Virus record (IMG/VR): IMGVR_UViG_3300026488_000036
Location: 1 to 37,703 of that record
Strand: one strand, 5' to 3'
From: a virus
Length of the DNA stretch: 37,703 nt
The translations under genes were made by a program, and so were the position numbers. How positions within the stretch are numbered: the stretch's first letter is position 1; every line of letters begins with the position of its first letter. Below are positions 1,002-37,703 of the stretch, piece by piece. The notes under the pieces are model-generated. The model searched no databases, was not told where the DNA came from, and saw only the letters and a program-made list of their open reading frames with translations.

Positions 1002-1028
1002 AAAATTTAACTGGAGTAAATGTAAACC

Positions 1029-1580: not shown

Positions 1581-1598
1581 CATGAGGAATAGTCACAA

Positions 1599-2507: not shown

Positions 2508-2518
2508 GAGCTAACAAA

Positions 2519-2950: not shown

Positions 2951-2968
2951 AAAAGGAGTTTACGGGAT

Positions 2969-4006: not shown

Positions 4007-4023
4007 TTTATAGCGAAACTAAA

Positions 4024-4060
4024 GGTTGGGGAGCCTTTTAATGGCTCCCCAACTATTTTT
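4024..4060 (+). terminator. Rho-independent terminator
   Basis: A perfect 11-bp stem GTTGGGGAGCC (4025-4035) and GGCTCCCCAAC (4043-4053) with a TTTTAAT loop is followed by TATTTTT. It lies 18 bases after a stop codon. Its 3' arm contains an in-frame ATG (4041) of the next reading frame, which would be sequestered, one reason to place the next gene's start at 4086. Confidence 0.8.
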
Positions 4061-4085
4061 ACTACATCTTTTCGGAGTTGAAGGT

Positions 4086-7830: not shown

Positions 7831-7863
7831 AGAAAACTATAGCATAAAAAAAGGTAGTAGACG

Positions 7864-10800
7864 ATGGAAGGAAATAAGCCACAAAATATACAAGGGTTAG
7901 ATAGTTTACTTAAGTCTTTTGCGAGTATTTTTAAGACTTTTCAAATAAAGAGTACTCATGATTATCTATTAAAAGGTATCCCTACATTTGAAGTTAGTGC
8001 AGGATTAACCGATGCTTCAAAAACCATCAGTGAATTGAATTTGGGTTCTCAAAAAATTCCCGTTAAAGTACTTAATATTGCCGAGGCGTTAGGAAATAAA
8101 CTTGCAAATCCAATTCATTCGAGATTTACCAGTCTCGATCAATTACGTCAAGTTTCTAAGGTATTTGAAACTGGTGCATATTTTCATGCTGCAAATCCTC
8201 TTGATATTGGATCTGCAGCCATCTTTGCCGTTGCAAAACTGTTTAATGCAGCTAACTTTGCGACTGCTGAACTTGCTCCAATTATCAGCGATATAATCCA
8301 GAAGACTGACAATACCTTCTTACAAACTTTACTTACAACACTATTTCATGGGCTATTACGAGCCCATGAAGCGCAAAAAGTAAGCACTACGGAAAAATAC
8401 CTAAGAAAGATAACCGATGTTATCACAAAAACCTATAGTGTACTTACTGATTTATTCACCTTTTTAAAGAGTAAGTTTGATGAAGTAATGTCTCATTTTA
8501 TCAACGATATGGATTCATTTTGGGCTGCATTAATCTCAGGAGGATCTTTCTTAACTCCCTTTGTAAAATTATTAATTGGTCCTCTAAAGGAAACAGTTGC
8601 TATAACCACTAAAATTGCCCTTGAATCTCTTAAAAGTATTCTAGGTAAACCCTTTGAGCGTCTACTTTTGAAATTTATCAGTCCTAAAGAAAATCCTCAA
8701 GTTAAAAAGCTTACTGAAATTCAAAATACACTTGTTAATATTTTAGAGGCAACTGAACAAGTAGCTTCTTTTTTAGAGGCCGGTTTAGGAGTTTCAGTAC
8801 CTGGCGCTGAAACACTAAGCAAAGTAAAAGAGAAACTAACTTCTCCTGTAATTAATCCTGAAACTTACATTCAGCGTAAAGTACAGGAAACCGCAACTAA
8901 AGCGACATCAAAAGTAACAAGTCTGTTAAGTAAACCTATAGAAGCAGGCTTTACAGGAATTTCTGGAAAAATTCTAGGATTAACACTTGCAGGAGTTGGT
9001 GCTGCATTTGGTTTATCTGCACTAAAAAAGCATTTTGAGTCAGAGAAAGTAGAAAGAACTATAAAGCCTGAGGAAGAAATACGAGCATTTATTGCTAGAC
9101 ATCCTATTCTCGAAAGAAGTATTAATATCATTAACAAATTCACATCTACAATTGACGAGGGACTACGTTCTCTTAAAGCCTCATTACTAAACTTCTTTGA
9201 AAAACAACGCGAAATTTACAAGGAGTTACCTTCTTATAAAGCTATTGAAGAATCTTTAGAAAAACGCGTAGCACAAGTAGAAACTCAACTAGATAAGTCG
9301 ATTAAAACTATTCAGTTTACTACATATTCAACAGTTGAAAAGATTACACTGCTTGGAGAAGTACTAGCATCCTCTATCACAAAGTCTCAGGAAGAATTTA
9401 AACAGTATAAACAATCACTTGTTGAAATTTTAAAGGATACTGAAAAATCATTTTTCACAAGAATTCTTTCAACTACTCTATCAATTGCATCTCATTTAAA
9501 TGAATTCCAAGCGCGTATAACAAAACGTCTTGAATCAGTTTTTATTAAAGCAGACGAATTGTATCGTAAGGTTGAAAGTTCCTTTGTTGGGCGTTTAGTT
9601 AAGACTACAATATCTGAGTTAGAATCTGTTTTAAAACCAGCTACGACTTACATTCAAGAAACTTATGATAAAACTCTTGCTTTACTTATCAAAATTCAAG
9701 CTGAAAAAATCCAAGAGGTAACTAATCAAACTGTAAAATCAATCGTATCCAGCTATAATCGTGTTGCAGCATATGGTGAATACTTCTTTACTAAACTAGA
9801 CAAGTTTATAGATACAAAAGTATTGCCATTTCTAAAAGATACTCTTATTTTTCTTACACTCGGAGTAAAGTATCTTAAAGTAGCATATCCAGATTTAAAA
9901 CGTAGCACTATCGAATTTATTCATAAACTTAGCAGGACAACCATTTCTGCATATACTACCTTAAAAAGTAGGCTGGCAAAAATTTACAAAGATTTCAACA
10001 TTGTTAAAGCTACTTTCTTCAATAAGTATTTACCGAAAATTGCTGCAGAATTTAAATCTACAACCATTTCACTACATAAAAACTTTGTAGAGTTAAATAC
10101 TGAGTATCTAAAACATACTGTTGCTAGTTTAACTAGATTTTACCACGGGCTTTCAAGTACATGGTATTCTCTCCAAAAGAAACTCACAAATAATGTAAAA
10201 ACATTACTATCGCAATTTACCAAGCAAAATATACAGCATACAAAAACTCTTCAAAAAACAACTCAAGTATTTATGCAACATACCTCTACGTTGTGGAAAA
10301 AGATTTCGAGTTTAACTGGTAAATTTTACAAAGATTCCGATTTACAATTTAAGCAACTTATTCGTATAATCCAAGAGAATTTAAAAACATTAAGCAATCA
10401 TGTCGTTACCTATATAAAAACGCTTCTTTCCAAAACTGAATCTCTTTTTAAAAGAGTATCTGAAAAGATAGAACAAACATTTTCATTTGTCAAAAAATTT
10501 ATTACTGGATTATTTAAACGAGTTTCCGGTTCAGTTCCAAGTATAATCAAAACAGTATCTTCCTTTTTCAAAAGTCAATCTGTGGATTGTAAAGCAGTTT
10601 ATAAAGATACTTTTTCTCAGGTTCGTAATTACATTGAGAAAGTCTCAAGTATGCAAACTAAAACCACAAGAAGTCTTTTTGAAACTTTTGCACATAAAAT
10701 ACATCTTGCTACAGATAAACTTGATAAATATACAAAATCAACTGTCAATGTAATTACTCGCATCATTCAACACTTTGCAACAAATCTTACGAGAACAAAG

Positions 10801-12141
10801 GAATCTATTCCTGGGTTTATTCAAGAGAAATTACGCACACTTGAAATATTAAAGCGGAAATTAAGTCTTTATGAGACAACTAGAAAAAATACAGTTTCCG
10901 AGAAGACAACTCAACTCCTGTCCTCTCTAAATAAAAAAATTGATAAACTGGTTGCTATAGAATCTCGTGTAGTTAAGAATCTAAAATCCGTACTTTCTAA
11001 ACTGATATCCTCTGGCTTCAGCTTATTTAAAAAAGCAAAAGGACTTTCTCTTACAGATATTTTTACTGGTATTGGATTATATCATGGTGCAAAGACTATT
11101 TTAGGAAAAACAAGAGCATTAATTGGAGCTGGAGTTAATTTAGGGAAAAATGCTGTAACTTCAATTGCTGAAGGTATTACAGCAAAAACTGCTACATCTA
11201 ACGTAAGCAAAACTATTGGTAGCCGAGTAGTTTCTATTTTCTCAGGAATTGGTAAGACTGCAACTGAATTTGGAGCACGTGTTCTTAGTTCTGAATTTGT
11301 ACATACAGTTGCAACTGGAGCTGCAAATATTCTAACTAAAGCTACACCTGCAACTGCTGCAATTTCCGCTTTAGCTCTACTGGGATATCTAGGATACAAA
11401 AAATACAAAGAACTAAAAGAAAACGAGAAATCTAAACTCCAGACTGAAAAAGAAAGTAAAGCATCCAAATCAAGTGCTAAAACTGAAGAAGAACGTAGCA
11501 TACATAGTAAAAAGGAAAATGAAATATCCAATGTTCATTTTAAAAACATAGCACATGAAGCTGAAACACATACTTTGCATAAACACCTATCCCATATAAC
11601 AAACGAAACTTTAAGGACTCTAGGGTATAATACACTGCCTGTTCCTGCAAAATCTGAAAAGGAAAGTTCAATTGCAAATACTGAGCTTCCAGAAAAACTT
11701 ACTACTCTTAGTAAAACTGTCAATCAACACGTAAATACAACTTCTGCAGTTGTAAAAAGTGAAAACGTAGTTGTAGTAACTGAATCTAAAAAAGCCTCAA
11801 AATTAAATACACTTTTAGAAAACACAACTAGACCTATTTCAAATATTGAAGAATATTGGATGCTACAAAACATTCCAGAAACTGTATCAATGTCAACACG
11901 TAACATCTCTGCTGAAAAACTCAAAGAGATGTACACTGATAGCTCTAAAATTAGCAAATACTTTAAGGAGCTTAAAGACTATATTACCAACTTCTTTAAA
12001 CAAAGTACTTCCAAAAATGCTCCAGTTGTTGCTCCTGTTATGAACAACGTATCTAATGCAACAAATACTATCATCAATAATACAACAATCAAAGGAGGTT
12101 TAGATACTTATTATCCAGATAGTACCTACACTGGATTCTAA
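7864..12141 (+). CDS. Putative tape measure protein
   Basis: 1425 residues, the longest gene in the window. Almost entirely helical, with long coiled-coil-like stretches rich in Lys, Ser, Thr and Leu between about 400 and 1050. Hydrophobic glycine/alanine segments occur near residues 363-391 (GLTLAGVGAAFGLSAL) and 1161-1182 (AAISALALLGYLGY), as is usual in tape measures. The C-terminus is low-complexity Asn/Thr. Length, position after terminase and fold style support a tail-length-setting protein; an internal head protein is the alternative. No lysozyme or peptidase motif was seen. Weak ribosome site (AAGGTAG) 6 bases upstream. Confidence 0.65.
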   Translation: MEGNKPQNIQGLDSLLKSFASIFKTFQIKSTHDYLLKGIPTFEVSAGLTDASKTISELNLGSQKIPVKVLNIAEALGNKLANPIHSRFTSLDQLRQVSKVFETGAYFHAANPLDIGSAAIFAVAKLFNAANFATAELAPIISDIIQKTDNTFLQTLLTTLFHGLLRAHEAQKVSTTEKYLRKITDVITKTYSVLTDLFTFLKSKFDEVMSHFINDMDSFWAALISGGSFLTPFVKLLIGPLKETVAITTKIALESLKSILGKPFERLLLKFISPKENPQVKKLTEIQNTLVNILEATEQVASFLEAGLGVSVPGAETLSKVKEKLTSPVINPETYIQRKVQETATKATSKVTSLLSKPIEAGFTGISGKILGLTLAGVGAAFGLSALKKHFESEKVERTIKPEEEIRAFIARHPILERSINIINKFTSTIDEGLRSLKASLLNFFEKQREIYKELPSYKAIEESLEKRVAQVETQLDKSIKTIQFTTYSTVEKITLLGEVLASSITKSQEEFKQYKQSLVEILKDTEKSFFTRILSTTLSIASHLNEFQARITKRLESVFIKADELYRKVESSFVGRLVKTTISELESVLKPATTYIQETYDKTLALLIKIQAEKIQEVTNQTVKSIVSSYNRVAAYGEYFFTKLDKFIDTKVLPFLKDTLIFLTLGVKYLKVAYPDLKRSTIEFIHKLSRTTISAYTTLKSRLAKIYKDFNIVKATFFNKYLPKIAAEFKSTTISLHKNFVELNTEYLKHTVASLTRFYHGLSSTWYSLQKKLTNNVKTLLSQFTKQNIQHTKTLQKTTQVFMQHTSTLWKKISSLTGKFYKDSDLQFKQLIRIIQENLKTLSNHVVTYIKTLLSKTESLFKRVSEKIEQTFSFVKKFITGLFKRVSGSVPSIIKTVSSFFKSQSVDCKAVYKDTFSQVRNYIEKVSSMQTKTTRSLFETFAHKIHLATDKLDKYTKSTVNVITRIIQHFATNLTRTKESIPGFIQEKLRTLEILKRKLSLYETTRKNTVSEKTTQLLSSLNKKIDKLVAIESRVVKNLKSVLSKLISSGFSLFKKAKGLSLTDIFTGIGLYHGAKTILGKTRALIGAGVNLGKNAVTSIAEGITAKTATSNVSKTIGSRVVSIFSGIGKTATEFGARVLSSEFVHTVATGAANILTKATPATAAISALALLGYLGYKKYKELKENEKSKLQTEKESKASKSSAKTEEERSIHSKKENEISNVHFKNIAHEAETHTLHKHLSHITNETLRTLGYNTLPVPAKSEKESSIANTELPEKLTTLSKTVNQHVNTTSAVVKSENVVVVTESKKASKLNTLLENTTRPISNIEEYWMLQNIPETVSMSTRNISAEKLKEMYTDSSKISKYFKELKDYITNFFKQSTSKNAPVVAPVMNNVSNATNTIINNTTIKGGLDTYYPDSTYTGF
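8345..8370 (+). repeat. Perfect 10-bp hairpin in coding sequence
   Basis: TTCATGGGCT (8345-8354) pairs with AGCCCATGAA (8361-8370) across the 6-base loop ATTACG, within the tape-measure reading frame. There is no T-tract after it, so it is not an ordinary terminator. Confidence 0.55.
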
Positions 12142-12170: not shown

Positions 12171-12662
12171 TTGCCTGGACGCAAATCTAAACAAAAAGGA
12201 AAGTATTTTGAAGAGCAAGTTGCAAAATATTTTCGTCAAGTACTTAATGAAACTCGAGAAAATATTCACAGAGCATTTACATCAGGAATTAGCAATATTG
12301 AAAAAGGAGATATCGTATTTACAAATTATAAAATTGTTGTTGAGTGCAAAAATCATTCAACATTTAGCTACTACGATATCTTTCCAAAACTATCCAAGCA
12401 ACTTTTCAACTACTACAAGTCAATTGAAAAATACAGAGATCACCTAAAGATTCTTGCAATCAATAACTCTTCCAATAGAAAATTCAAGCCACTTGCGGTA
12501 CTAGATAAACTAGAGGTCGATAGGTTTATTAAAGAGGGAGTCTTAAAAGACTCCCTCTATTTATCTCCATACATTATTACTCATTATTGCAGCAGATGGT
12601 TTTTCGTACAGGATCTTAAAGTATTCATCACATTTATCAATTTTGAGAAATTGCATAAATAA
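12171..12662 (+). CDS. PD-(D/E)XK nuclease-like protein
   Basis: 163 residues beginning with TTG, chosen because AAGGAGGT lies at ideal spacing. The N-terminus KGKYFEEQVAKYF (an early acidic helix), then GDIVF (D47) and VVECKNH (E58, C, K60) match the core of the PD-(D/E)XK nuclease fold, in an arrangement like resolvase- or restriction-type small nucleases. The C-terminal half is not recognised. It lies 45 bases before queE and the DpdA-like gene, so it may act in recombination, or in degrading DNA lacking the phage modification; the latter is speculation. A perfect 12-bp hairpin lies inside the reading frame. Confidence 0.7.
   Translation: MPGRKSKQKGKYFEEQVAKYFRQVLNETRENIHRAFTSGISNIEKGDIVFTNYKIVVECKNHSTFSYYDIFPKLSKQLFNYYKSIEKYRDHLKILAINNSSNRKFKPLAVLDKLEVDRFIKEGVLKDSLYLSPYIITHYCSRWFFVQDLKVFITFINFEKLHK
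12533..12558 (+). repeat. Perfect 12-bp hairpin in coding sequence
   Basis: AGAGGGAGTCTT (12533-12544) and AAGACTCCCTCT (12547-12558) are exact reverse complements separated by AA. It looks like a terminator stem but lies about 100 bases upstream of the stop of the nuclease gene and is followed only by ATTTATC. Confidence 0.75.
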
Positions 12663-13446: not shown

Positions 13447-14832
13447 ATGTCTCAGTATTATCCGAAAACTATACATAATCATATTTTCGACTATGTCGAC
13501 GTTGGAGCGCAACAAATTGCTCAAATTGCAGAAAATTTTGTAAAGGAAAATTATGTGTCAAAAGAAGATATCATAAGGTTTTTCAAAGAAAGTCTCTCAA
13601 ATTTCCTACATAGTGCTGGTGTAGAAATGACTCCACTTCGTAAAGATGAAAAGAAACTCCTGAATTTCATTACATCAGGAAAATTCACCGAGAGACTTAA
13701 AAAATTTGTTAACTATATAAATTCAAGTCCCTATTTAAAACACACTGGAATTTTTATAGACTCAGGCGGTTATCAAATTGCAATCGGTATTATTCCTAAA
13801 AAAGCAATACTTGAATATGCTCCACGTTACCTACAGTTTCTAAAAGAAACTGATGATTTCTCAATTGCATTCTCAATGGATATTCCTGCAGATTATCCAA
13901 TTGTAAATAATGTAAATGAACTCTATACTCTCAACTCTTATACAACACGTCTTATCTTTGAATACGGAATTGAAGACAAGATAACCTATGTCTACCATTT
14001 TAGAGGAAAAGGTTTAAATTATATTTGGAATCAAATTATGCAAAAATACAATGTGTTCAAGTATATTAATAAGTATGCTATTGGTGGTTTTGCATCGCAT
14101 GGGAAAAAGCCAAACATTCCATTTCCAATGTACATTCCTCAATTTGTAAACGTACTTGGAAATGCAATAAAATCTAAAAATCCAAAATTACCAAAATTCC
14201 ATTTTCATATCCTTGGAGTTTCAGGTTTTGCAGATTTTATGCAAGGTATTCTTATTGCATTAGCTTCTCGAGAATTCCATAATATAGAAACTCATGTAAC
14301 CGCAGACTCAAGCAGACTATTTACTCAACTTGCAAGAGCATATCAAGTTGAAATCTTTTTAGAAAATAAACTAGGTAAACTTGAGTTTAAAAGCAAAGAG
14401 TTACATAAACGCAACAAATTCTTTAACAAAAGTAACTACGAATTATGCATGCAATGTATAAATTACTTAAATGAGAAATACAATTTCAAACTACCAACTA
14501 CATTCAAAGTATATGATGATAATGGAAAAATCAACAAAATCTTTTTAAATGCACTTATCCTCTATATGATGAATAATTGTCAGCAACTTATTGCGCATCT
14601 AATAAATGAATGCAAAGAACTTATAAACTACTACAAAACCAGACAGAAATCAAAGTTTAATATGAAAGTCCGAGAAATTTTCAAAGAGCTTGGAATGTCT
14701 CATAGTTTTTATGCAAATTTAGATTACTGGGGAGGTTTAGAGTTAATCGAAAGTCTAAATATAAATAGAGCACATCAAATATTAAATCGCCTATATGACG
14801 ATTTTGAGGTATTTAAACGTAAACTAGCTTAA
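13447..14832 (+). CDS. DpdA-like DNA/tRNA-guanine transglycosylase
   Basis: 461 residues, AGAGGAGGT ribosome site. TRNA-guanine transglycosylase superfamily: GIFIDSGGYQ (D105; compare TDSGGFQ in TGT), FSMDIPADYP (D145), AIGGFASHG (GG at 213-214), FHILGVSGF (254-261) and VTADSSR (about 284-290) fall in the order seen in TGT and phage DpdA proteins. Paired with queE, the likely role is exchange of guanine in phage DNA for a 7-deazaguanine derivative, protecting it from restriction. The C-terminal 150 residues differ from canonical TGT and the usual zinc-site pattern is not obvious, which favours DpdA over a tRNA enzyme. The other preQ0 genes (folE, queD, queC) are not in the window. Confidence 0.78.
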   Translation: MSQYYPKTIHNHIFDYVDVGAQQIAQIAENFVKENYVSKEDIIRFFKESLSNFLHSAGVEMTPLRKDEKKLLNFITSGKFTERLKKFVNYINSSPYLKHTGIFIDSGGYQIAIGIIPKKAILEYAPRYLQFLKETDDFSIAFSMDIPADYPIVNNVNELYTLNSYTTRLIFEYGIEDKITYVYHFRGKGLNYIWNQIMQKYNVFKYINKYAIGGFASHGKKPNIPFPMYIPQFVNVLGNAIKSKNPKLPKFHFHILGVSGFADFMQGILIALASREFHNIETHVTADSSRLFTQLARAYQVEIFLENKLGKLEFKSKELHKRNKFFNKSNYELCMQCINYLNEKYNFKLPTTFKVYDDNGKINKIFLNALILYMMNNCQQLIAHLINECKELINYYKTRQKSKFNMKVREIFKELGMSHSFYANLDYWGGLELIESLNINRAHQILNRLYDDFEVFKRKLA

Positions 14833-14844
14833 GGAGGATTATAA

Positions 14845-16314
14845 ATGCTTCAGCTTCTCAACGAACAAAAAATTCTTGAATTCATGCGCGTTATTTATCA
14901 CAATACCGAAAAAATAAATAGAGCAGCTTTATACAAATTCCAAACAATCCTAGAGTTTTTCAAAAAGTCATTACCAGAACCTCATCTAGATTTTGCCCTT
15001 GAAGTTTTACAACTCTTTTTCGAAGGGAAATCTTGGAATGAAATTTTCGCCACTCTTGAATTTAACCCAGTATATGTTGATTATATTGCAGCTTTAAAAC
15101 AAAAACCTTCACTCTCTTTATCCGAGTTTTACGTATACATTGAAAAATTCTACAAATATATACGTATAAAGGAACACATTCAGAAAATTACACAGTACTC
15201 TCTTAACATCGAGGAATATCTCAATAAAAACATTGAACAAGCATACCAAGAATTCAAAGCATTAGGTGAAAAGTTATTCAACACACTTATTGAACTTGAT
15301 AAAAATGAAAATCGTCAAGCATCAAATATATGCAGCGAAAATGTTCATGAAATCTTAGAAGCCTTTAAAAATTACTTACAACATGAGCTTCTTATTGTAG
15401 AAACAGGATATCCTGCTTTAGATGCAATTTTAAATGGCGGTTTGCATGGAAAACGACTATATAATTTTGTAATTCCATCAGGTTCTGGAAAATCCACATT
15501 AATGATTAACTTAGTTAGAGAAATTGCATATACGTATCCAAATTCAGAAACTCGCAAACGCTTTGAATTAAAGCATCCTGATAAAATTCCAACATTATAC
15601 TACTTTACGCTTGAAAATACTGAAGAAGAAACCTATCATCGATTATTTTCATGTGTTGCAGAAACATCAATTCAAGGTATAAACGATATTGATAAAATAT
15701 CCAATTCTTTAACTGAATTCTTCAGTCATACTCCAGTAAATATTGCTATAGTATATATGCCCGCAGGTTCGGCAACTGTCATTGATTTAATCTCATACAT
15801 TGAAAAACAATTTATTAAAAATTGGAGGCCACTTGCAATCTTTGTAGACTATTTATTGCTTTTACGCTCAAGTAGGCAATATGAACAACGTCGTTTGGAA
15901 TTGGGACAAATAACTCTAGAATTGAAAAATATGTCAATTTATTTTGAATGTCCTGTTATATCGGGGTTACAAGTTAAAAAAGATTCTATTGATGCTAAAA
16001 AAGGTTTATCATTATCAGCTATCAAAGAATCATCTGATATCATCGATCATAGTGACTGTATAATTGGAGGTTGGCAAGCAGTACCTGGAGAAATCTTACG
16101 ACTTAAAGTATTAAAACAACGTAATGGTGCATCTAATGTATACGTAGATTTCAATATAGATTTTTCGAAGTTTAGGATTTATCCGCAACATATTAAAACA
16201 AACTTTAAGATCGGTACATCTACTACTAGTACTTCAAGTTCAACACCTACAGACAATAACTCTAAAAACGAATCTGTTGATTCTGCAGAATCCTTAATAG
16301 AGCAACTACTCTAA
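14845..16314 (+). CDS. DnaB-like replicative helicase
   Basis: 489 residues, AAGGAGGA ribosome site. The N-terminal 180 residues are helical, as in DnaB-type N-domains. The RecA-like motor begins at VETGYPALDAILNGGL; Walker A is PSGSGKST (211-218), the catalytic Glu region YFTLENTEEE (E257), Walker B LAIFVDYLLLL (D335), the sensor ISGLQVKKD, and LKVLKQRNG matches the DnaB KxRNG element. It is the hexameric replicative helicase, T4 gp41 class. The C-terminus is a Ser/Thr-rich linker. It is placed within late-type genes next to the DNA-modification pair rather than beside a polymerase. Confidence 0.9.
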   Translation: MLQLLNEQKILEFMRVIYHNTEKINRAALYKFQTILEFFKKSLPEPHLDFALEVLQLFFEGKSWNEIFATLEFNPVYVDYIAALKQKPSLSLSEFYVYIEKFYKYIRIKEHIQKITQYSLNIEEYLNKNIEQAYQEFKALGEKLFNTLIELDKNENRQASNICSENVHEILEAFKNYLQHELLIVETGYPALDAILNGGLHGKRLYNFVIPSGSGKSTLMINLVREIAYTYPNSETRKRFELKHPDKIPTLYYFTLENTEEETYHRLFSCVAETSIQGINDIDKISNSLTEFFSHTPVNIAIVYMPAGSATVIDLISYIEKQFIKNWRPLAIFVDYLLLLRSSRQYEQRRLELGQITLELKNMSIYFECPVISGLQVKKDSIDAKKGLSLSAIKESSDIIDHSDCIIGGWQAVPGEILRLKVLKQRNGASNVYVDFNIDFSKFRIYPQHIKTNFKIGTSTTSTSSSTPTDNNSKNESVDSAESLIEQLL

Positions 16315-24966: not shown

Positions 24967-25342
24967 AAAACTAGTATTAATAATTGCTATCGTATGTATA
25001 ATTTGCTATACGCTTATAAAAATAAGCGAAAAAATTTTACTGTACTGGCGTATATTTGAATCCTACTCACTCTTTAAACTCCTTTTGGAGGAGTACCTAA
25101 ATTATCTGCTTTCATATAAATGGATTAAATACACTGATACTGAAAACGAGCTTACTCCTGAGGAATTCAAAAAACTTGAGCGCGAATTACTAGAAATCGT
25201 ATATTCAACATTCAAAAATTCTCAACTTTGGAAAGATTTAGAGAAGTTTCTATCAACCGATGGAGTCATGTATCTAACAATGCTTTATGTTCATAAAGCC
25301 ATTTTAACTAAATACGTTGTATCTGAACGTGAGGTATTATAA
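24959..25342 (+). CDS. Small membrane-anchored protein
   Basis: 127 residues. The N-terminus has one hydrophobic segment (residues 4-19, KLVLIIAIVCIICYTLI) followed by a helical, charged cytoplasm-like domain. Ribosome site CGGAG. It overlaps the preceding gene by 8 bases and shares TAATG with the portal start, so the three genes are coupled. A membrane-anchored protein beside portal is unusual; a role in prohead initiation at the membrane is one possibility. Confidence 0.65.
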   Translation: MYEKLVLIIAIVCIICYTLIKISEKILLYWRIFESYSLFKLLLEEYLNYLLSYKWIKYTDTENELTPEEFKKLERELLEIVYSTFKNSQLWKDLEKFLSTDGVMYLTMLYVHKAILTKYVVSEREVL

Positions 25343-27162
25343 TGAATCCGATACAGTTTCTTAAAAAACTTATTTACAAAGATGCAGTTCCAAACGAAGT
25401 AGATAAAATTTACCAGAAGCTAGCTTCAAAACTTGCAGATTTTCAGGTTATCAAATCAGCAGTTATATCACGAGAACTAGCACATCAACTTAAAAATCTG
25501 GAGCTTGAACGACTTTTTCAAGAAGCTGAAGAAACAGCTCCTTCTATTGAATCCGACAGGCAGCGTAGATATAAAGATTATGAAGACATTGTAAAAGACT
25601 TACCTCTTGCTTCAGCTGCACTCTCAATTTACAAAGACAACATTTTACGTCCAGACTTAAACTTCCAAAGCTTAATTAAGATAACAGGACCCGTTTTAGA
25701 TGAACAACTTGAAATCCAAACTGTCTTAACCAATATCCAAAAAATAATTCGTACGCTAAAAATTGAAGAGTTACTTGATGAAGTAGTTGACGATTTCCTA
25801 TTTTACGGTGATGCATTTATTGAAATTGAAGAGTTTGAAACTCTGATTCAACAATACAAACTAATTGATACTGCACAACAAATTGAATTATTGCAATCGC
25901 ATAATACTTATTTCGAGTTTAAATTTGAAAACAATGAGTTAAAGTGTATTCGAGAAGCATCACGTTTAATAAAGGATAAAAACCTACTTGAAACAAACAA
26001 GGAATTTGATACCGTCGCGTTAGATAGAATAAAACTCACTCGTCATTCGCCTAAAAATGTAATAATCGTAAGAACCTTTGATCAAGTTTTAGGATACCTT
26101 GTGATATATGCATTAGGAGAACAACAAGTTGAGTACGGCGTTCAACTTGCATATCAACTCCTCGATGCATTATTTAAAGCAAACAATATGGAAAAAATTC
26201 GAAAATATATTGATGAAAATCCTGAAGTTGTAAATCAAATCGTAAGCTATTTAAATTCACATCTTAAAAAAGCAGGAAATGATAAGATAAAGGCAAAATT
26301 TGTACCAATTAATCGAATGGTACATTTTTGTAATAAGGATCAACGTTTTTGGCCTTACGGGGCATCTATCTTAGAACCTATTAGAAAGTATGCAAAGTAT
26401 TTAATTGTTGCAATGAAAGCTCTCATGATATACCGTCTTACTAGAGCTTCAGAAAAAAGAGTATTCAAAGTTGACATTGGCGTAGACAGAGATGCTGCAA
26501 AATATATTGAGAAAATCAAGCAAACAATAACTCAACGTAAATATGCTTTGGACTTTGACGGTGACATTGACTCTTTAGTGTCTACAGTTACTTTATTTGA
26601 AGATTTATGGATTCCTATGAGACAAGGACAAGAGTTTGTACAAGTTGATATTATTCCAGGAGGCGATCTACAATCAAAAATTGACGACTTAAACAACATC
26701 AAAAACGATATAATTTCTGGACTAAATATGCCTCCTTCATATTTATCGCCAGAAGCATCTGAAGAATCTCGTTATACTCTAGCTCAGGAAAACGCAAGGT
26801 TTGCAATTAAAATCTTCAGATTGCAACGATATATCTCAAATGGTTTAAAGGATTTGATAGATAAAGTTTATAGTTTAGCTTTTGGATATACTCCAGTACT
26901 TTCTCAGTTTAACATTCAACTGTATCCGCCTCAAGAATTAATGCTTGAACGTATGGGTGATATTTTCGATTCTGTTTCTCGTATCATATCTACCTTTGAT
27001 AATATTCCAAGCGTTCCAAAAGAATATCTTGTTAAGAAATTTGCACCATTCATTGACTGGAATGAAATCAGAGAATATGAACTAGAGGAGAAAATTAAAC
27101 AACTCGAGAAAGCACAAAAAGAAGGACAATCCAATGAAGAAGAAACAGGCGGTCTTTTCTAA
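25342..27162 (+). CDS. Portal protein (T4 gp20-like)
   Basis: 606 residues; forms the dodecameric head vertex for DNA entry. Typical segments: YEDIVKDLPLASAALSIYKD near residue 79, an acidic VVDDFLFYGDAFIEIEEF region near 150, a central LEPIRKYAKYLIVAMKALMI helix, and the clip/stem region ending GGDLQSKIDDLNNIKNDIIS through LNMPPSYLSPEASEESRYTL, which is characteristic of gp20-like portals. Length is in the usual range. It is the first gene of a gp20-gp21-gp23-type head set. Confidence 0.88.
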   Translation: MNPIQFLKKLIYKDAVPNEVDKIYQKLASKLADFQVIKSAVISRELAHQLKNLELERLFQEAEETAPSIESDRQRRYKDYEDIVKDLPLASAALSIYKDNILRPDLNFQSLIKITGPVLDEQLEIQTVLTNIQKIIRTLKIEELLDEVVDDFLFYGDAFIEIEEFETLIQQYKLIDTAQQIELLQSHNTYFEFKFENNELKCIREASRLIKDKNLLETNKEFDTVALDRIKLTRHSPKNVIIVRTFDQVLGYLVIYALGEQQVEYGVQLAYQLLDALFKANNMEKIRKYIDENPEVVNQIVSYLNSHLKKAGNDKIKAKFVPINRMVHFCNKDQRFWPYGASILEPIRKYAKYLIVAMKALMIYRLTRASEKRVFKVDIGVDRDAAKYIEKIKQTITQRKYALDFDGDIDSLVSTVTLFEDLWIPMRQGQEFVQVDIIPGGDLQSKIDDLNNIKNDIISGLNMPPSYLSPEASEESRYTLAQENARFAIKIFRLQRYISNGLKDLIDKVYSLAFGYTPVLSQFNIQLYPPQELMLERMGDIFDSVSRIISTFDNIPSVPKEYLVKKFAPFIDWNEIREYELEEKIKQLEKAQKEGQSNEEETGGLF

Positions 27163-28516: not shown

Positions 28517-29278
28517 ATGCAAAATGACAATAATTTACTGATAATATCCGAAAGCGCTTATTTTCCAGAAGACATTCGGATTTTAAAAGAAGAAAAGTCA
28601 AAGTATGATGATACGTGGACTGTTACATTTGAAACTATTTTGCAAAAACTAGATGTTCCAAATCAAAATAATCGTGTATATACAACTCGTCTATTTAAGG
28701 AAATCTGGGATAGTCAAATTGTTCCAAAACTTAAAAAGCGTCATTTATATGGAGAGTTAGGACATCCAATTGAAGGATACTCAAATCCAGAAGATGCATT
28801 AGCAAGACAAATTACTATTCATCCACCTTACATGTCACATATGATTTTGGATATGAAACTTGACGGGCAATACATTAGGGGAACTGTTAAAACTTTATCT
28901 ACACCATATGGACAAATTGCTACAAGAATTCTAACTATTGATAAGGGAACATTAGGTTTTTCTTTAAGAGCAGTCGGTAAACCTGTACCTCAAGTTCTCA
29001 ATGGTAGAAAAGTATACGTTATACAAAAACCGTTTATCTTTGTAACATACGATATGGTTGTTAACCCAAGTAATCCTGCAACTATATTTGATTATACGCA
29101 AAATAAAAACTTATCTGAAACCGCAATACTTAAGGAAACCAGAACTTTAACTTCTTCCAGAGGACAAAGTAAAGTTATATGTTTAGATAACATTTGTGTA
29201 ATTAATGAAAATATTAACAACTTGTTTAAACACGAATATTTAAAACAACTTTTCGAATCTGCAATCGAAAAACTCTAG
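28517..29278 (+). CDS. Prohead maturation protease (T4 gp21-like)
   Basis: 253 residues, ribosome site CGGAG. Serine protease of the herpesvirus-assemblin/gp21 clan: LYGELGHPIE gives the catalytic His (H83), and LGFSLRAVGK gives the Ser (S149). The preceding NNRVYTTRLF matches the gp21-type substrate-loop region. It processes core and capsid proteins during head maturation and lies directly before the major capsid gene. Confidence 0.9.
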   Translation: MQNDNNLLIISESAYFPEDIRILKEEKSKYDDTWTVTFETILQKLDVPNQNNRVYTTRLFKEIWDSQIVPKLKKRHLYGELGHPIEGYSNPEDALARQITIHPPYMSHMILDMKLDGQYIRGTVKTLSTPYGQIATRILTIDKGTLGFSLRAVGKPVPQVLNGRKVYVIQKPFIFVTYDMVVNPSNPATIFDYTQNKNLSETAILKETRTLTSSRGQSKVICLDNICVINENINNLFKHEYLKQLFESAIEKL

Positions 29279-29300: not shown

Positions 29301-30800
29301 ATGTCCGCAATCTTAAATTCTATTGATGACGTAAAGTACTTACTTAGAGAAACTTACGAAGATATAAGAGCTGCAAAAGGATATGTTGTACAAAGAGATT
29401 GGCCTGCAATATTAAGTGAACAAGAAACTTTTGAATTGTATGTAAGAGGATTAGCAGAAGGATTGTCTGAACAAGACAGAGCAATTTTTGAAAAACTTGC
29501 TGAAAATACTAGACAAGCATTATTACTTGAAAACTTTGCTGGACAAATTTCTCCATGGCAACAACTCGTTTTACCAATATTAAGAGTATTCTTCCCAAGA
29601 TTAGTTGCTAAAGAAGCAGTAACCGTTGAACCAATTGACAAACCAACTGTTGTTAAATACTTTATTAAAGCAGTAGTTAAAACACTTGCTGGAAAAGAAT
29701 ACAACTTACCATTATATGGTGAAGGTGCTCCATTTGTATCTACTGGACCAGAAGTACCAGTAGATGTAGCATTAACATTTGATGCAACATCTAAAACTGC
29801 ATCTGGAAATATCAAAGCTCTTGCTGGAGTTAAAGACTCTGAATCTACAATCAATAGAGATCTTAAAATCGTAAAACTTGTATCTACTAATAAACAAGAA
29901 GTTGAAGGCGAATGGACACCTGACATTGAAGGAAGAATCGTAATAGAAGTACAATACGATCCTGCAGATCCAACAACTAAAGACGTTATTACAGGTTATG
30001 TAAACTATGCAACTGGAGAAATCTTCTTACAATCTAGCACAGGACAAACTGCAAGCGTATATATTCAAGCAACAGTATCTCTTGAAGCAAATGACGCATT
30101 AAACGAAGTTGAACTCAAAACTGTAAAACTTGAAATTAATGCAAGAGATCAAGGACTCAAAACCAGATGGTCCGTAGAATTCGAGCAAGACTTAAAAGCT
30201 TTACTCAACCTAGATGCTAAAGCTGAAATGGTAGCAATACTTGGTGCGCAAATTGCAACTGAAATTGACAGAAAAATAATTAATGAACTTATAACTGCAG
30301 TAACAAGACTTAATCCAGCTGCACAAGATACATTTAGCAAAACTCCACCATCCAACTTCGCTTTCGGTCCAAAACAATGGTATGAAAACATTGTTACCAA
30401 GTTAACTGAACTTTCCGCATTAGTATATGATAAAACACAAATTGGGCCAGCAAATGTAATCCTTGCAAACCCACTTGATGCATCTGTATTACAAGCTTTA
30501 GGAACTTATACAAAAATTGGTGGAGTTGTAGATAACGGAGAATTACAAAACGGAGCTTACGAAATCGGGCAATTAAATGGAAAATGGAAAGTATTAGTAT
30601 CTTCTAACGTACCAAAAGGTAAAATGATATTAATTCTTAAATCCAACAATCCAAAAGAAGCAGTATATCTCTATGCACCATACGTACCACTTTACATCAT
30701 GCCATATCCATTAGGAAATATTCCATCTTTAACATTTAAATCCAGATACGCAACCAAGTTAATTAGGCCAGAAGGAATTGCATTGTTAAATATTAACTAA
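29301..30800 (+). CDS. Major capsid protein (T4 gp23-like, HK97 fold)
   Basis: 499 residues with the strong ribosome site AAAGGAGGAG. The N-terminal helical region is followed by SPWQQLVLPILRVFFPRLVA, the typical gp23 P-loop-adjacent segment, and later NEVELKTVKLEINARDQGL, then WSVEFEQDLKALL with DAKAEMVAILGAQIATEIDR, all characteristic of gp23-like capsids. Codon use looks more biased than in its neighbours (Arg nearly always AGA), as expected for the most abundant protein. It follows the protease by 22 bases and ends just before a strong terminator; no separate scaffold gene lies between them. Confidence 0.9.
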   Translation: MSAILNSIDDVKYLLRETYEDIRAAKGYVVQRDWPAILSEQETFELYVRGLAEGLSEQDRAIFEKLAENTRQALLLENFAGQISPWQQLVLPILRVFFPRLVAKEAVTVEPIDKPTVVKYFIKAVVKTLAGKEYNLPLYGEGAPFVSTGPEVPVDVALTFDATSKTASGNIKALAGVKDSESTINRDLKIVKLVSTNKQEVEGEWTPDIEGRIVIEVQYDPADPTTKDVITGYVNYATGEIFLQSSTGQTASVYIQATVSLEANDALNEVELKTVKLEINARDQGLKTRWSVEFEQDLKALLNLDAKAEMVAILGAQIATEIDRKIINELITAVTRLNPAAQDTFSKTPPSNFAFGPKQWYENIVTKLTELSALVYDKTQIGPANVILANPLDASVLQALGTYTKIGGVVDNGELQNGAYEIGQLNGKWKVLVSSNVPKGKMILILKSNNPKEAVYLYAPYVPLYIMPYPLGNIPSLTFKSRYATKLIRPEGIALLNIN

Positions 30801-30816
30801 TTCTAGGAGCAAAATT

Positions 30817-30852
30817 AGGATCCGGGGATTTAAAAATCCCCGGATCCTTTTT
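30817..30852 (+). terminator. Strong rho-independent terminator (possibly bidirectional)
   Basis: GGATCCGGGGAT (30818-30829) and ATCCCCGGATCC (30836-30847) are perfect complements, extended by an A-T pair outside and T-A pairs inside, followed by TTTTT. It ends the capsid operon; read from the other strand it follows the stop of the small minus-strand gene, so it may serve both. Confidence 0.93.
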
Positions 30853-30858
30853 GACTCG

Positions 30859-31029
30859 CTACCTTCCATTTTTCTTCTCCCACTCTTTTGCAAGCATCTC
30901 CATACGAATTCTTCCAATGTCGTTTTGCAATCTTTTATAATCCTCATAATATTTATATGTTGAGGTAACATGCTTTTCCATATCTACAATTGCTTGATTT
31001 AGAATCTCTTCAAAACTCGGATTTTTCAC
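30859..31029 (-). CDS. Small hypothetical protein (56 aa), GTG start
   Basis: On the minus strand an AAGGAGG (31034-31040) lies 4 bases before a GTG that opens a 56-residue frame, MKNPSFEEILNQAIVDMEKH onward, ending EWEKKNGR. Charged and wholly helical-looking, possibly a small coiled-coil or DNA-binding regulator. It converges on the capsid operon terminator. The good ribosome site and frame argue that it is real despite its length; no function can be given. Confidence 0.65.
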   Translation of the reverse strand: MKNPSFEEILNQAIVDMEKHVTSTYKYYEDYKRLQNDIGRIRMEMLAKEWEKKNGR

Positions 31030-32660: not shown

Positions 32661-33461
32661 ATGGTTAAGAAAATTGTAACTCATGTAAATCCAAGACATC
32701 TCGACGATACTTTAGCGGTAGCGCTTTTGGCATACAAATACCCTGAAGCGCAAATTGAATATATACATCCACAAAATGACAAAGAGAAAATAGAAAAATA
32801 CCTCAATGATTCATCAATTATATGCGTAGATATAGGAGGGAAATACAATCCCAAGTTTAAAAATTATGACCATCATCAAGATAAGAACGTAGAGTGTTCT
32901 CTAGTACTTATATTAAAACATGAATTTCCTGAACTTTATGAATTCATCAAGAAACATGAAATATTATCAAAGGAAATGAAATACATTGATATTAAAGACA
33001 GGTTTGGATTAAAAGAAGCCCAAAAATTAGGGGTATCCAATTTATTTATCGAAGAGGCCATTTTACTTAAGATGGCCGAAAATCCAGAAAATATGCAAAT
33101 TATAGGGAAAGCATTTTATGACAAATTAAATGAAATGTTGCAAGAATACAAAAACTTACAACAAATTGAAATCATCAATTACAATGGATATAAAATCGCA
33201 ATTGATAAAATCGGAATTAGATTTACAACAATTGTAAACAATCTAGATGTGGATTTAGTTATACAAAGAAATGTATTTGACAAAAGCGATACATCAATCA
33301 TCAAAGAAACAAGTAAGGAGAAAACAAAGAATATCGATTTCAACAAATTAAGGGAGAAATATTCAATTAAGTTTATTCACCAAGCGGGATTTATAGCGGT
33401 AATTGCAAAATCAATTGAGGAGTTGAATATAAAAGAATTGATTAGAGATATATTGGGCTAG
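32661..33461 (+). CDS. MYG1-like DHH-family protein
   Basis: 266 residues, ribosome site AAAGGGAGGTGG. The N-terminus IVTHVNPRHLDDTLAVALLA corresponds to the MYG1 signature THNGTFHxDExLAxxLL, and ICVDIGGKYNPKFKNYDHHQ matches its VDVGGxYDPxxxxYDHHQ, so the metal-ligand residues His, Asp and the DHH triad are present. Known MYG1 proteins are 3'-5' exonucleases acting on RNA. A phage copy might degrade RNA, or oligonucleotides made by host defence; that use is inference. The C-terminus (LIHQAGFIAVIAKS-like) fits the MYG1 end. The stop lies in a terminator hairpin. Confidence 0.75.
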   Translation: MVKKIVTHVNPRHLDDTLAVALLAYKYPEAQIEYIHPQNDKEKIEKYLNDSSIICVDIGGKYNPKFKNYDHHQDKNVECSLVLILKHEFPELYEFIKKHEILSKEMKYIDIKDRFGLKEAQKLGVSNLFIEEAILLKMAENPENMQIIGKAFYDKLNEMLQEYKNLQQIEIINYNGYKIAIDKIGIRFTTIVNNLDVDLVIQRNVFDKSDTSIIKETSKEKTKNIDFNKLREKYSIKFIHQAGFIAVIAKSIEELNIKELIRDILG

Positions 33462-33502: not shown

Positions 33503-33540
33503 TATAAATAATCTCACAAAAAAATTTTAAAAGGGAGGTG
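33503..33540 (+). promoter_or_regulatory. TATAAATAAT promoter box, leader class A
   Basis: TATAAATAAT (33503-33512) followed by CTCACAAAAAAATTTTAAAA and GGGAGGTG, ATG at 33545. The 12-mer TTTATTAAACTA just upstream (33491-33502) is also found at 17599. Class A leaders recur at 35941 and 37263. Confidence 0.82.
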
Positions 33541-33544
33541 GGTT

Positions 33545-33775
33545 ATGATTAAATTAATTTTAAACGAAGTAGAATTAAAAGAAGTACTTGCGGCTGGAAT
33601 AAAAATCGGCCGCGTAAGATACATATGGGACAGACATTTTGAAATTGTAATTCCTAAAGAAAAATTAACTGAAGTGGAGCTTGCTTGCAAGCTCTACGCA
33701 TGGGACTGGCTTGACTTCGACGAGCAAATACAGATTATTCAATATATTGATAAATTAAAAGGGCGGGTCGATTAA
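33545..33775 (+). CDS. Hypothetical small accessory protein
   Basis: 76 residues, class A leader with AAAGGGAGGTGG. Mixed alpha/beta: MIKLILNEVELKEVLAAGIK, then a strand KIGRVRYIWDRHFEIVIP and a C-terminal helix. Contains an 11-bp hairpin (33674-33697) with one G-U pair. Unknown function. The C-terminal codons run into the terminator at 33761. Confidence 0.65.
   Translation: MIKLILNEVELKEVLAAGIKIGRVRYIWDRHFEIVIPKEKLTEVELACKLYAWDWLDFDEQIQIIQYIDKLKGRVD
33674..33697 (+). repeat. 11-bp hairpin in coding sequence
   Basis: GAGCTTGC (33677-33684) and GCAAGCTC (33687-33694) are perfect, extended to 33674/33697 by G-C, T-A and one G-U pair, with a TT loop (effectively a four-base loop). It lies inside the gene at 33545. 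Confidence 0.65.
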
Positions 33776-34690: not shown

Positions 34691-35047
34691 ATGGCAAAAA
34701 TTCTAGATTGCACAGGATGGAAAATTGACTACATTCAATTTGGAAGACCTGGATCTGTAGATGAACTTTGCCTTGAGGTGGAACAGGGTTCTCCAATTGA
34801 AGTTGTATACAAAACAAAAGAATCTAATCATCCACTTATCAAAACTTATGTCATTCCTGAACTTAGAATTCCAAACATTAACCCAGAGCCAGGTACTGTA
34901 ATTCTAATTGACAAATCTATTCTCCCATATGCAAAGCAAATATGGGAGAAATTAGGACCTGTAGAGCTCTGGGTTGTAATGGGAGTAGATCTTGATGGAA
35001 ATAGTAATAGATATGTATCAGAAGATCAAATACATAGAGTGCCTTAA
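34691..35047 (+). CDS. Accessory family A protein, copy 1
   Basis: 118 residues, ribosome site AGGAGGT. Paralogous to the genes at 35124 and 37305: shared opening W/CTGW.I.Y(I/V).(F/W), a central EPGTVILIDKSILPYAKQIW element and a C-terminal aromatic, acidic end (NRYVSEDQIHRV). Predicted small alpha/beta protein, no known motif. Contains a perfect 11-bp hairpin at 34920-34950 and a longer-range 9-bp pairing around it. Function unknown. Confidence 0.7.
   Translation: MAKILDCTGWKIDYIQFGRPGSVDELCLEVEQGSPIEVVYKTKESNHPLIKTYVIPELRIPNINPEPGTVILIDKSILPYAKQIWEKLGPVELWVVMGVDLDGNSNRYVSEDQIHRVP
34880..34975 (+). repeat. Nested hairpins in coding sequence
   Basis: The inner stem is TTCTCCCATAT (34920-34930) with ATATGGGAGAA (34940-34950), 11 bp perfect, loop GCAAAGCAA. 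An outer pairing AACCCAGAG (34880-34888) with CTCTGGGTT (34967-34975) encloses it. Part of the inner pairing (CCATAT/ATATGG) is forced by the conserved PY.KQIW codons and is present in weaker form in the paralogue at 35124. Confidence 0.6.
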
Positions 35048-35123: not shown

Positions 35124-35474
35124 ATGACAGTATGGGACTGCAGCAAATACGGAATTGAGTACATTAAATTTGAAAACAAATGCATAAAAGTAATTCCTGT
35201 TTTACCTATAAAAATTGAGTATAAACAAAAAAGCTCAAATTGTTCTCTCATCAAATCTGGTATTACACTAGAACTTGAAATCCCAATGTTTACACCTAAA
35301 CCTGGCGACGTTATCCTTGTCGATGACGATCAACTACCATATGTAAAGCAAATATGGGAAGAAATCTATCCAATGGTTAAAGGAACTATTGATTTCTGGT
35401 ATGTTACAGATGCAAAAGAAGATGATAGTGGACATATGTATGCAAATGCAAGTGACATATATAGAATCCTTTGA
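35124..35474 (+). CDS. Accessory family A protein, copy 2
   Basis: 116 residues, AAAGGAGGT ribosome site. Aligns by eye with copies 1 and 3: MTVWDCSKYGIEYIKF at the start, KPGDVILVDDDQLPYVKQIW in the middle, HMYANASDIYRIL at the end. No clear TATAAATAAT box is visible just upstream; it follows a terminator, so either a diverged promoter or read-through is needed. Its coding sequence lacks the strong hairpins of copy 3. Confidence 0.7.
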   Translation: MTVWDCSKYGIEYIKFENKCIKVIPVLPIKIEYKQKSSNCSLIKSGITLELEIPMFTPKPGDVILVDDDQLPYVKQIWEEIYPMVKGTIDFWYVTDAKEDDSGHMYANASDIYRIL

Positions 35475-35509: not shown

Positions 35510-35890
35510 ATGAATAAAGACGCTTTAAGAAAATTGGGCCTACTATTAAAAATTCTTGGAATCATACATAAATTCGACTCCGAAAATCTAAAGGCATATC
35601 GCTTTATTGACATTGAAGGAAATGACGTCGTGGAATTTGATTTAAAAGACAAAAAAGATTTAGACTGGCTACTTTACGATCTTACCGAAAGTAAAATAAA
35701 CCAATTTCTCAATGATTTAGTTTTAGATATAATTGATGCAATCGATCTTAAATCCAGCGTCCATAATCCTGATGAATTCATTTGGATTTATTTTGAAGAT
35801 GCAACTCAAAGAAAAGCAAGAGCAATAAAAGAAAGAATTAAAAGGAGAGTTTTAAGTATTGTAAAACCGTTTAAAGATGTGCGGCTGTGA
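35510..35890 (+). CDS. Accessory family B protein, copy 1 (no hairpins)
   Basis: 126 residues from the ATG at 35510 (AAAAGAGGT upstream; a more upstream ATG at 35471 lacks a ribosome site). Paralogue of the next gene: ALRKLGLLLKILGI matches DLRKLGLLLKVLGI, followed by KFD..NL..Y.FI, a DL...L..L region and a C-terminal I...KPFK. Helical, charged, unknown function. Read by eye its coding sequence has no strong inverted repeats, in contrast with its paralogue, which makes it the natural control. Confidence 0.7.
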   Translation: MNKDALRKLGLLLKILGIIHKFDSENLKAYRFIDIEGNDVVEFDLKDKKDLDWLLYDLTESKINQFLNDLVLDIIDAIDLKSSVHNPDEFIWIYFEDATQRKARAIKERIKRRVLSIVKPFKDVRL

Positions 35891-35940: not shown

Positions 35941-35977
35941 TATAAATAATCTCACAAAAAATTTTAAAGGGAGGTGG
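35941..35977 (+). promoter_or_regulatory. TATAAATAAT promoter box, leader class A
   Basis: TATAAATAAT (35941-35950) followed by CTCACAAAAAATTTTAAAGG and GAGGTG, ATG at 35981. Drives the hairpin-array gene. Confidence 0.85.
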
Positions 35978-35980
35978 ATT

Positions 35981-36367
35981 ATGAGAAAAGATTTAAGAAA
36001 ATTGGGATTATTATTGAAGGTTTTGGGGATTGTCGATAAATTTGATCCCCAAAACCTTCAAAGTTACTATTTCATAAGTGATGACTTCGGAAATGTTTCC
36101 GAAGTCATCACTTACAATCTAAAAGATGAAGGAGATCTTGTAGATCTCCTTCATCAACTAACAACAAGAAAAGTGGACGATCTCATTGACGAGATCGTCC
36201 TACGTATATTAGAGACAGTAGATACTGTCTCTTATCGGTATAATTTTGACGCGTTCGTCTGGAATGAATTTCCAGACGAACGCGCGGAAAGAGCAGAAAA
36301 AATAAAGCAAAAAATAAAGAATAAAATTCTAGATATCATAAAACCATTCAAGACCCTGGAGGGGTAA
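35981..36367 (+). CDS. Accessory family B protein, copy 2: hairpin-array gene
   Basis: 128 residues from the ATG at 35981, chosen because AAAGGGAGGTG precedes it (an earlier in-frame ATG at 35930 lies upstream of the promoter). The protein resembles the 35510 product throughout (RKLGLLLKVLGI, KFDPQNL, LHQLT...VDDLIDEIV, IIKPFK). The coding sequence is a run of six perfect inverted repeats that together take up nearly half of its bases, with a seventh stem as terminator. Synonymous and conservative codon differences from the paralogue fall where they make the arms complementary. The protein is therefore probably ordinary and the structure is at the nucleic-acid level. Function unknown. Confidence 0.75.
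   Translation: MRKDLRKLGLLLKVLGIVDKFDPQNLQSYYFISDDFGNVSEVITYNLKDEGDLVDLLHQLTTRKVDDLIDEIVLRILETVDTVSYRYNFDAFVWNEFPDERAERAEKIKQKIKNKILDIIKPFKTLEG
36014..36284 (+). repeat. Array of six perfect hairpins within one reading frame
   Basis: Stems: (1) 17 bp, TTGAAGGTTTTGGGGAT 36014-36030 with 36045-36061, loop 14; (2) 19 bp, 36075-36093 with 36096-36114, loop TG; (3) 14 bp, GATGAAGGAGATCT 36125-36138 with 36142-36155, loop TGT; (4) 10 bp, GGACGATCTC 36175-36184 with 36191-36200; (5) 10 bp, AGAGACAGTA 36211-36220 with 36223-36232; (6) 15 bp, CGCGTTCGTCTGGAA 36250-36264 with 36270-36284, loop TGAAT. All are mismatch-free. The arm sequences differ completely between hairpins; centres are about 34-57 bases apart. 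Confidence 0.95.
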
Positions 36368-36388
36368 CCTCCAGGGTCTTTTTTTTCG
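36350..36388 (+). terminator. Rho-independent terminator, seventh stem
   Basis: AAGACCCTGGAGG (36350-36362) pairs with CCTCCAGGGTCTT (36368-36380); the loop carries the stop codon TAA; followed by a T-tract. The 5' arm is coding. Confidence 0.93.
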
Positions 36389-37262: not shown

Positions 37263-37299
37263 TATAAATAATCTCACAAAAAAAAATTTAAAGGGAGGT
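37263..37299 (+). promoter_or_regulatory. TATAAATAAT promoter box, leader class A
   Basis: TATAAATAAT (37263-37272) followed by CTCACAAAAAAAAATTTAAA and GGGAGGTG, ATG at 37305. Third class A leader; all three class A genes carry hairpins in their frames. Confidence 0.85.
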
Positions 37300-37304
37300 G
37301 CGCG

Positions 37305-37673
37305 ATGAAAATTTGGAATGCTTCAGGAATACACTTGAATTATGTATACTGGGAAGGGGCATCCTTCCCAGTATACGAAATTGAACCTTTCAAAATCAAA
37401 TATAATCTAATTTTACGTGCGGGACATCCAATGTGCTCCGCACGCTACGAATGGGATTTTGAGTTCCCCTTCCAGTTAGAGGAAGGGGAACTCAAGGCGG
37501 GGGACATTATATTGATAAATAAAGATCTAATCCCACTGGCGAGGGAGCTAAAGAAAGAACTTATACTTCTCGCCAGGGGGGTGGTGGATGTTTTCGTTAT
37601 CGATCCAAGTGAAATAAAAGAAGATAATGAAGGAAGAAGATACGTAGATTCTGAGGGGCTCTACGAAGTATAG
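37305..37673 (+). CDS. Accessory family A protein, copy 3: second hairpin-array gene
   Basis: 122 residues, ribosome site AAAGGGAGGTG. Paralogue of the genes at 34691 and 35124: KIWNASGIHLNYVYW at the start, LKAGDIILINKDLIPLAREL in the middle, RRYVDSEGLYEV at the end. Its coding sequence carries a chain of perfect or near-perfect hairpins that the other two copies largely lack. GC content is visibly higher in the stem arms than elsewhere. Unknown function. The stop codon lies in the loop of the last stem. Confidence 0.75.
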   Translation: MKIWNASGIHLNYVYWEGASFPVYEIEPFKIKYNLILRAGHPMCSARYEWDFEFPFQLEEGELKAGDIILINKDLIPLARELKKELILLARGVVDVFVIDPSEIKEDNEGRRYVDSEGLYEV

Positions 37674-37684
37674 TAGAGTTCCTC
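37344..37684 (+). repeat. Second hairpin array inside a reading frame
   Basis: Stems: GTATACTGGGAAGG 37344-37357 with 37363-37376 (14 bp perfect, loop GGCAT); CGTGCGG 37416-37422 with 37438-37444 (7 bp, with a further inner GACAT pairing across a bulge); TTGAGTTCCCCTTCC 37459-37473 with 37481-37495 (15 bp perfect, loop AGTTAGA); CTGGCGAG 37536-37543 with 37569-37576 (8 bp, extended by CCC/GGG across a bulged A); GAGGGGCTCTAC 37653-37664 with GTAGAGTTCCTC 37673-37684 (12 bp including two G-U pairs), terminator-like but without a T-tract. Confidence 0.88.
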
Positions 37685-37693
37685 AATCCATCG

Positions 37694-37703
37694 CCCCCCC
37701 CCC
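37694..37703. other. Terminal poly-C run
   Basis: Ten C in a row at the very end of an AT-rich window. No similar run occurs elsewhere. Most likely an assembly or sequencing end artefact, although a real element cut by the window end is not excluded. Confidence 0.5.

Follow-up and report, generated by a model that had tools for sequence, protein, structure and literature searches.

Chains of perfect hairpins within small genes of a T4-superfamily phage: candidate coding palindromes

How does a protein-coding gene come to hold six mismatch-free hairpins one after another, and are these produced by errors in copying DNA or kept for the sake of the message? The question is raised by a gene at 35981..36367 of the IMG/VR virus record IMGVR_UViG_3300026488_000036 (positions 1 to 37,703, the whole of this stretch being referred to here as the window), a fragment of a T4-superfamily myovirus. 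We read the stems as coding palindromes that template switching has produced and keeps perfect, within the limits set by the encoded protein, and that selection on the mRNA has possibly retained. We consider the case for this account about evenly balanced; the stems' origin apparently lies in DNA copying errors, in mRNA selection, or in both. The gene and its stems, the latter from an inverted-repeat search, are as follows (bp, base pairs; pLDDT, predicted local distance difference test).

35970..35976, plus strand: Shine-Dalgarno sequence GGGAGGT ahead of the ATG at 35981, read from the sequence
35981..36367, plus strand: hairpin-array gene, family B, protein P0003, 128 amino acids (AlphaFold2 mean pLDDT 80.7)
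36014..36061: stem 1, 17 bp, loop 14
36075..36114: stem 2, 19 bp, loop 2
36125..36155: stem 3, 14 bp, loop 3
36175..36200: stem 4, 10 bp, loop 6
36211..36232: stem 5, 10 bp, loop 2
36250..36284: stem 6, 15 bp, loop 5
36350..36388, plus strand: intrinsic terminator, a 13-bp stem (36350-36380) whose loop includes the stop codon, followed by a T run

Structured genes and their paralogues

All six coding stems and the terminator stem named in a preliminary description of this DNA were recovered where it had placed them, and 85 of the 85 pairs in the six stems are Watson-Crick. Its argument that such a chain is not chance holds: perfect stems of at least 14 bp with loops of 2-20 number eight in the whole window against 0.0 expected under a first-order Markov null, and seven within open reading frames (ORFs) against 0.2 in synonymous shuffles. 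Chance is excluded as the source of the array. The comparison with shuffled sequences that the same description had proposed points the same way. Gene and terminator together fold at -179.7 kcal/mol, whereas 100 dinucleotide shuffles give -86.5 ± 5.1 kcal/mol and none of them is as stable (z -18.4), and shuffles that keep protein and codon counts still leave z at -10.4 and -8.9 in two runs. The arms have no repeated copies and no sequence in common, so insertion of a repeat, already discounted in the preliminary description for elements of the repetitive extragenic palindromic (REP) type, is rejected.

Most other genes of the window fold with z near zero. The exceptions are a second, strongly structured gene and a third, weaker one, both missed by the preliminary description. 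A minus-strand ORF at 30786-30971, also flagged in the folding scan, contains the terminator of the capsid gene and was left out of the count. The additional structured genes and the paralogues are listed below.

37305..37673, plus strand: second hairpin-rich gene, family A, P0005, 122 amino acids, found by folding and inverted repeats (AlphaFold2 mean pLDDT 82.1)
37344..37376: 14-bp perfect stem in the second hairpin gene
37459..37495: 15-bp perfect stem in the second hairpin gene
37652..37685: 13-pair stem with two G-U pairs, across the stop codon of the second hairpin gene
33545..33775, plus strand: third, weaker structured gene, 76 amino acids, with G-U pairs in its stems
35510..35890, plus strand: family B paralogue of the hairpin-array gene, P0002, unstructured
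34691..35047, plus strand: family A paralogue, mostly unstructured, with one 11-bp perfect stem at 34920-34950
35124..35474, plus strand: family A paralogue, P0001, unstructured

The second gene reaches z -8.4 against dinucleotide shuffles and -4 to -7 against synonymous ones, with G-U wobble stems besides perfect ones, and the third -4 to -5 against synonymous shuffles. Folding at 75 C still leaves structure (z -11, -6 and -7). The three genes have G+C contents of 35%, 35% and 41%, above those of their neighbours, and match codon use more poorly than the neighbours do. In genes 35981 and 37305 no perfect stem appears before codon 12-14, which leaves more freedom around the start. Family B has two members (35510 and 35981) and family A three (34691, 35124 and 37305); in both, a single copy is rich in hairpins and the remaining ones are not. 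The family B paralogue, with 48% protein identity to gene 35981, folds at z +1.4 to +2.2, and its DNA retains 36 pairs against 31.6 ± 3.2 expected, which is the random level, so most of the stems are private to gene 35981. Close to the window end, pairing is possible between GGGGGGTGGTGGAT at 37577 and ATCCATCGCCCCCC at the very end, with further stems enclosed between them (37577-37703).

Relatives of these genes were sought widely. Homologues of the small hairpin-gene proteins were absent from the IMG/VR scans, GenBank phages and plasmids examined, family A homologues from genome contigs, and significant matches from fold searches with both hairpin-gene proteins. Neither a second sequence of the hairpin locus nor a homologue bearing stems was found. 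In the window, no Rfam model matched at its gathering threshold and a tRNA scan was empty.

Fit between protein and pairing

Both arms of the stems remain within the protein family. Residues of the left arms are identical to the paralogue at 48% of sites, those of the right arms at 39% and those outside the stems at 54%, with mean BLOSUM62 scores per site of 2.9, 1.9 and 2.6, respectively, all measured against this one paralogue; gene 35981 is therefore neither an insertion nor a pseudogene. The AlphaFold2 models likewise suggest that both hairpin-gene proteins fold in an ordinary way.

The pairing goes beyond what codon choice alone provides and has been fitted by the amino acids as well. With free synonymous choice, peptides of other phage proteins can pair fully at these stem geometries in 0-0.5% of cases (about 400 draws), and the paralogue's own peptide, with all synonymous codons allowed, can do so at stem 1 only, where its capacity for pairing is unusually high (one test of six, P 0.003). 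Codon choice within the stems is atypical, at 0.49 compared with 0.61 outside them and 0.65 in the paralogue. Among the eight perfect stems of genes 35981 and 37305, codon position 2 faces position 2 in six, position 1 faces 1 in one and position 3 faces 3 in one.

Origin of the stems

In the account proposed here, chance would supply short imperfect inverted repeats in an accessory gene that evolves fast, and a polymerase switching template within such a hairpin (quasi-palindrome correction) would replace one arm by the reverse complement of its partner. Conversions would pass selection on the protein only if they left a working peptide in both arms, and the hairpins may then persist where a structured mRNA is selected for, or tolerated, in a few separately promoted late genes. 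The template-switching step is the part that we infer. Quasi-palindrome correction was among the possibilities named in the preliminary description and fits best; the RNA roles set beside it (nuclease resistance, decoy, ribosome pacing, protection from RNA-targeting defence) are hypothetical.

A DNA-level process is favoured because of the excess of perfect stems, the strand symmetry of gene 35981, and the milder versions seen in relatives. Among stems of at least 11 pairs in ORFs, six related phage contigs have 24 perfect ones against 2.8 expected from synonymous shuffles (about 21 when counted independently, since contigs G004 and G005 share much sequence), whereas one-mismatch stems number 17 against about 10 expected. 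The latter comprise four G-U, four A-C and nine transversion mismatches, and thus no clear preference for G-U. The window alone has 12 perfect stems against 0.3 expected and five one-mismatch stems against 2.4. Coding sequence of terminase-bearing contigs, 779 kb in all and covering the remainder of this phage as well, showed a mild excess of perfect stems of at least 11 bp (19 against 4.0 expected) and no other ORF with a hairpin chain. In contig G001 (L012:9167-11035), a 12-bp perfect stem lies in an ATP-dependent DNA ligase gene, so stems are not limited to orphan genes; adjacent 17- and 12-bp stems lie in the neighbouring ORF of unknown function. Gene 35981 itself is as structured in antisense (z -10.1) as in sense (z -8.9), and an excess of sense over antisense is seen in gene 33545 but not in 35981 or 37305.

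Several observations weigh against template switching. A paralogue only 0.5 kb away, under similar protein constraints, has neither stems nor residual pairing, which indicates gene specificity. Genes 33545 and 37305 contain G-U pairs, and the former is sense-biased. The codon-phase bias (seven of eight stems not in phase 3) lacks significance. In the terminators of this phage, where selection acts on RNA, about 45% of stems are perfect and G-U pairs make up 5-6%, and a similar G-U share (6 G-U in 131 pairs, 4.6%) is present in the complete fold of gene 35981; since terminators are near-perfect with few G-U pairs, the absence of G-U from the six stems is weak evidence, and its use as proof of a DNA mechanism lost force with this control. 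Two isolates of the phage (99.46% identical over 10.9 kb, 59 differences) show no clustered change of the template-switch type, but that stretch consists of structural genes. Finally, a single leader type is common to all three structured genes, whose promoters are as follows.

35941..35950, plus strand: promoter motif TATAAATAAT of the hairpin-array gene, CTCAC leader class
37263..37272, plus strand: promoter motif TATAAATAAT of the second hairpin gene, CTCAC leader
33503..33512, plus strand: promoter motif TATAAATAAT of the third structured gene, CTCAC leader

The motif TATAAATAAT, which we take to be of the T4-late type, belongs to a set of eight promoter-like motifs between 31133 and 37272 (one of them CATAAATAAT), each just ahead of a Shine-Dalgarno sequence and a small gene; no exact copies of TATAAATAAT occur elsewhere in the window. 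The leader TATAAATAATCTCAC...AAAGGGAGGTG, also written TATAAATAATCTCACAAAAA...AAAGGGAGGTG, is carried by three of these eight genes (33545, 35981 and 37305), and the other five carry a different one. A string search with promoter and leader for other carriers gave no match. At 33503-33546 and 35941-35983, bases of the CTCAC leader are complementary to those surrounding the start codon (TAATC-CAC to GTGGRTTA), so that a start-site hairpin may form.

Selection on the mRNA is a possible explanation, though on the unlikely side. Three separately promoted and terminated late genes would make double-stranded messages with no need of template switching, to the benefit of resisting single-strand-specific RNases (host decay, toxin RNases, or RNA-targeting clustered regularly interspaced short palindromic repeat (CRISPR) systems) or of persisting at high temperature. 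It readily explains the contrast with the unstructured paralogue, and the leader's presence on all three structured genes, but on not one of the five others behind this promoter, speaks for it, an association recognised post hoc at 1 in 56 by exact test. So do the onset of perfect stems at codon 12-14, the G-U pairs and sense bias just described, and the persistence of structure in the 75 C fold, a relative of the phage coming from 70 C sediment. It accords poorly with the strand symmetry and purely Watson-Crick stems of gene 35981, and with an excess in related contigs that consists of perfect stems with little or none near-perfect. The amino acids have been altered to fit as well, where selection on RNA might have relied on synonymous changes, and the reading comes with no known function or homologue. 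A bolder form, which we regard as doubtful, would make the three genes a phage regulon of "armoured" messages, pushed into perfect hairpin chains at some cost to the protein so that the mRNA outlasts RNA-degrading defences or heat.

Recent transfer of the three genes with their leader, from a phage lineage in which hairpins are general, is unlikely. The shared leader, the higher G+C content and the poorer codon match would suit it, but much of the codon shift lies in the stems themselves, no donor lineage was found in viral contigs, phages, plasmids or genomes, and the question would be shifted, not answered. Function at the DNA level, with hairpins or cruciforms controlling replication, packaging or recombination, would be consistent with strand symmetry and with stems perfect in DNA; it is very improbable given arms that have no common sequence, stems confined to particular coding frames, and the lack of a known origin or packaging motif. 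An assembly or amplification artefact is hardly credible: the contig does end in ten consecutive C about 30 bases beyond the second hairpin gene, but promoters and terminators are in place, the arms measure 10-19 bp where amplification chimeras should show long inversions, and the chimera envisaged in the preliminary description is made unlikely by a frame open throughout and paralogue homology in both stem arms.

The phage and comparable systems

Upstream of the locus, the window carries recognisable phage genes.

5303-6949: terminase
7864-12141: tape measure
14845-16314: helicase
25342-27162: portal
28517-29278: protease
29301-30800: major capsid protein

From 31 to 37.7 kb follows a cluster of small genes without assigned function; TATAAATAAT, or a variant with one mismatch, precedes eight of them. 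The same phage occurs in another sample as IMGVR_UViG_3300026484_000545 (L113, G006, 77.8 kb), which is 99.46% identical over window 1-10919 and reaches about 67 kb upstream; it does not contain the hairpin locus. The second isolate carries a single T to C substitution that disrupts an 11-bp perfect hairpin within a gene at 4526-4560. The major capsid protein led to the nearest relatives found, which have about 40% of it in common with the window phage, and one of them, G001, comes from 70 C sediment of Great Boiling Spring (PMC6624737); the window phage may itself be a hot-spring dweller.

Some further genes deserve mention. A putative PDDEXK endonuclease (Pfam PF24608) at 12171-12662 has a 12-bp perfect stem within its coding sequence, and the terminator of a gene matching the MYG1/UPF0160 exonuclease family (32661-33461, E value 1e-10) overlaps its stop codon. 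Weak similarity to a phage queuine tRNA-ribosyltransferase (PHROG 887, E value 1e-4) is found at 13447-14832. Elsewhere in the same phage (L115:14870-16564), a TnpB/Cas12f-like protein (Pfam Cas12f1-like_TNB, E value 1e-14) has hairpin-rich flanks nearby.

The closest precedent is found in the mitochondrial genes of hairworms (Nematomorpha), which hold coding palindromes whose arms are proposed to be homogenised by template-switch conversion (Mikhailov et al. 2019, PMC6649704). The preliminary description knew of no phage system of this kind, and none turned up in the literature searched; it did not mention the hairworm case. Both systems have perfect inverted repeats within genes (here above the codon-shuffle level), conserved protein sequence encoded by both arms (here against one paralogue), uneven distribution among genes and flattened codon use. 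The near absence of imperfect repeats in hairworms may have a parallel in the pooled related contigs, but genes 33545 and 37305 contain G-U pairs. By this analogy, the DNA-level signs in the phage would match those from which the hairworm palindromes were ascribed to conversion (PMC6649704). The hairworm arms are long, however, with a mean of 43 bp and up to 142, and are spread over the mitochondrial genome of several species (PMC6649704), whereas those of this double-stranded DNA phage measure 10-19 bp and concentrate in genes 33545, 35981 and 37305, with six in a row in 35981.

Template switching, the known route to such stems, has been proposed to create and repair RNA hairpins as well as inverted repeats in yeast genes, a perfect stem being made in one event (PMC8794818, PMC8604942). 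The mechanism proposed here is the same, but those cases were inferred by ancestral reconstruction and the present one from a single locus sequence. Rickettsia palindromic elements, REP and BOX are palindromes as well, those of Rickettsia likewise inside reading frames, but all are copies of one sequence, unlike the phage arms. The phage's intrinsic terminators resemble the six coding stems in length, near-perfect pairing and short loops, from which the latter differ in lacking a U tract and lying inside a gene.

If the stems are coding palindromes, this would be a double-stranded DNA phage case of a phenomenon hitherto known mainly from animal mitochondria. In such a small, fast-evolving genome, mutational homogenisation and selection on the message could be separated by population sequencing, and the structured gene 35981 beside its unstructured paralogue 35510 offers a natural controlled comparison.
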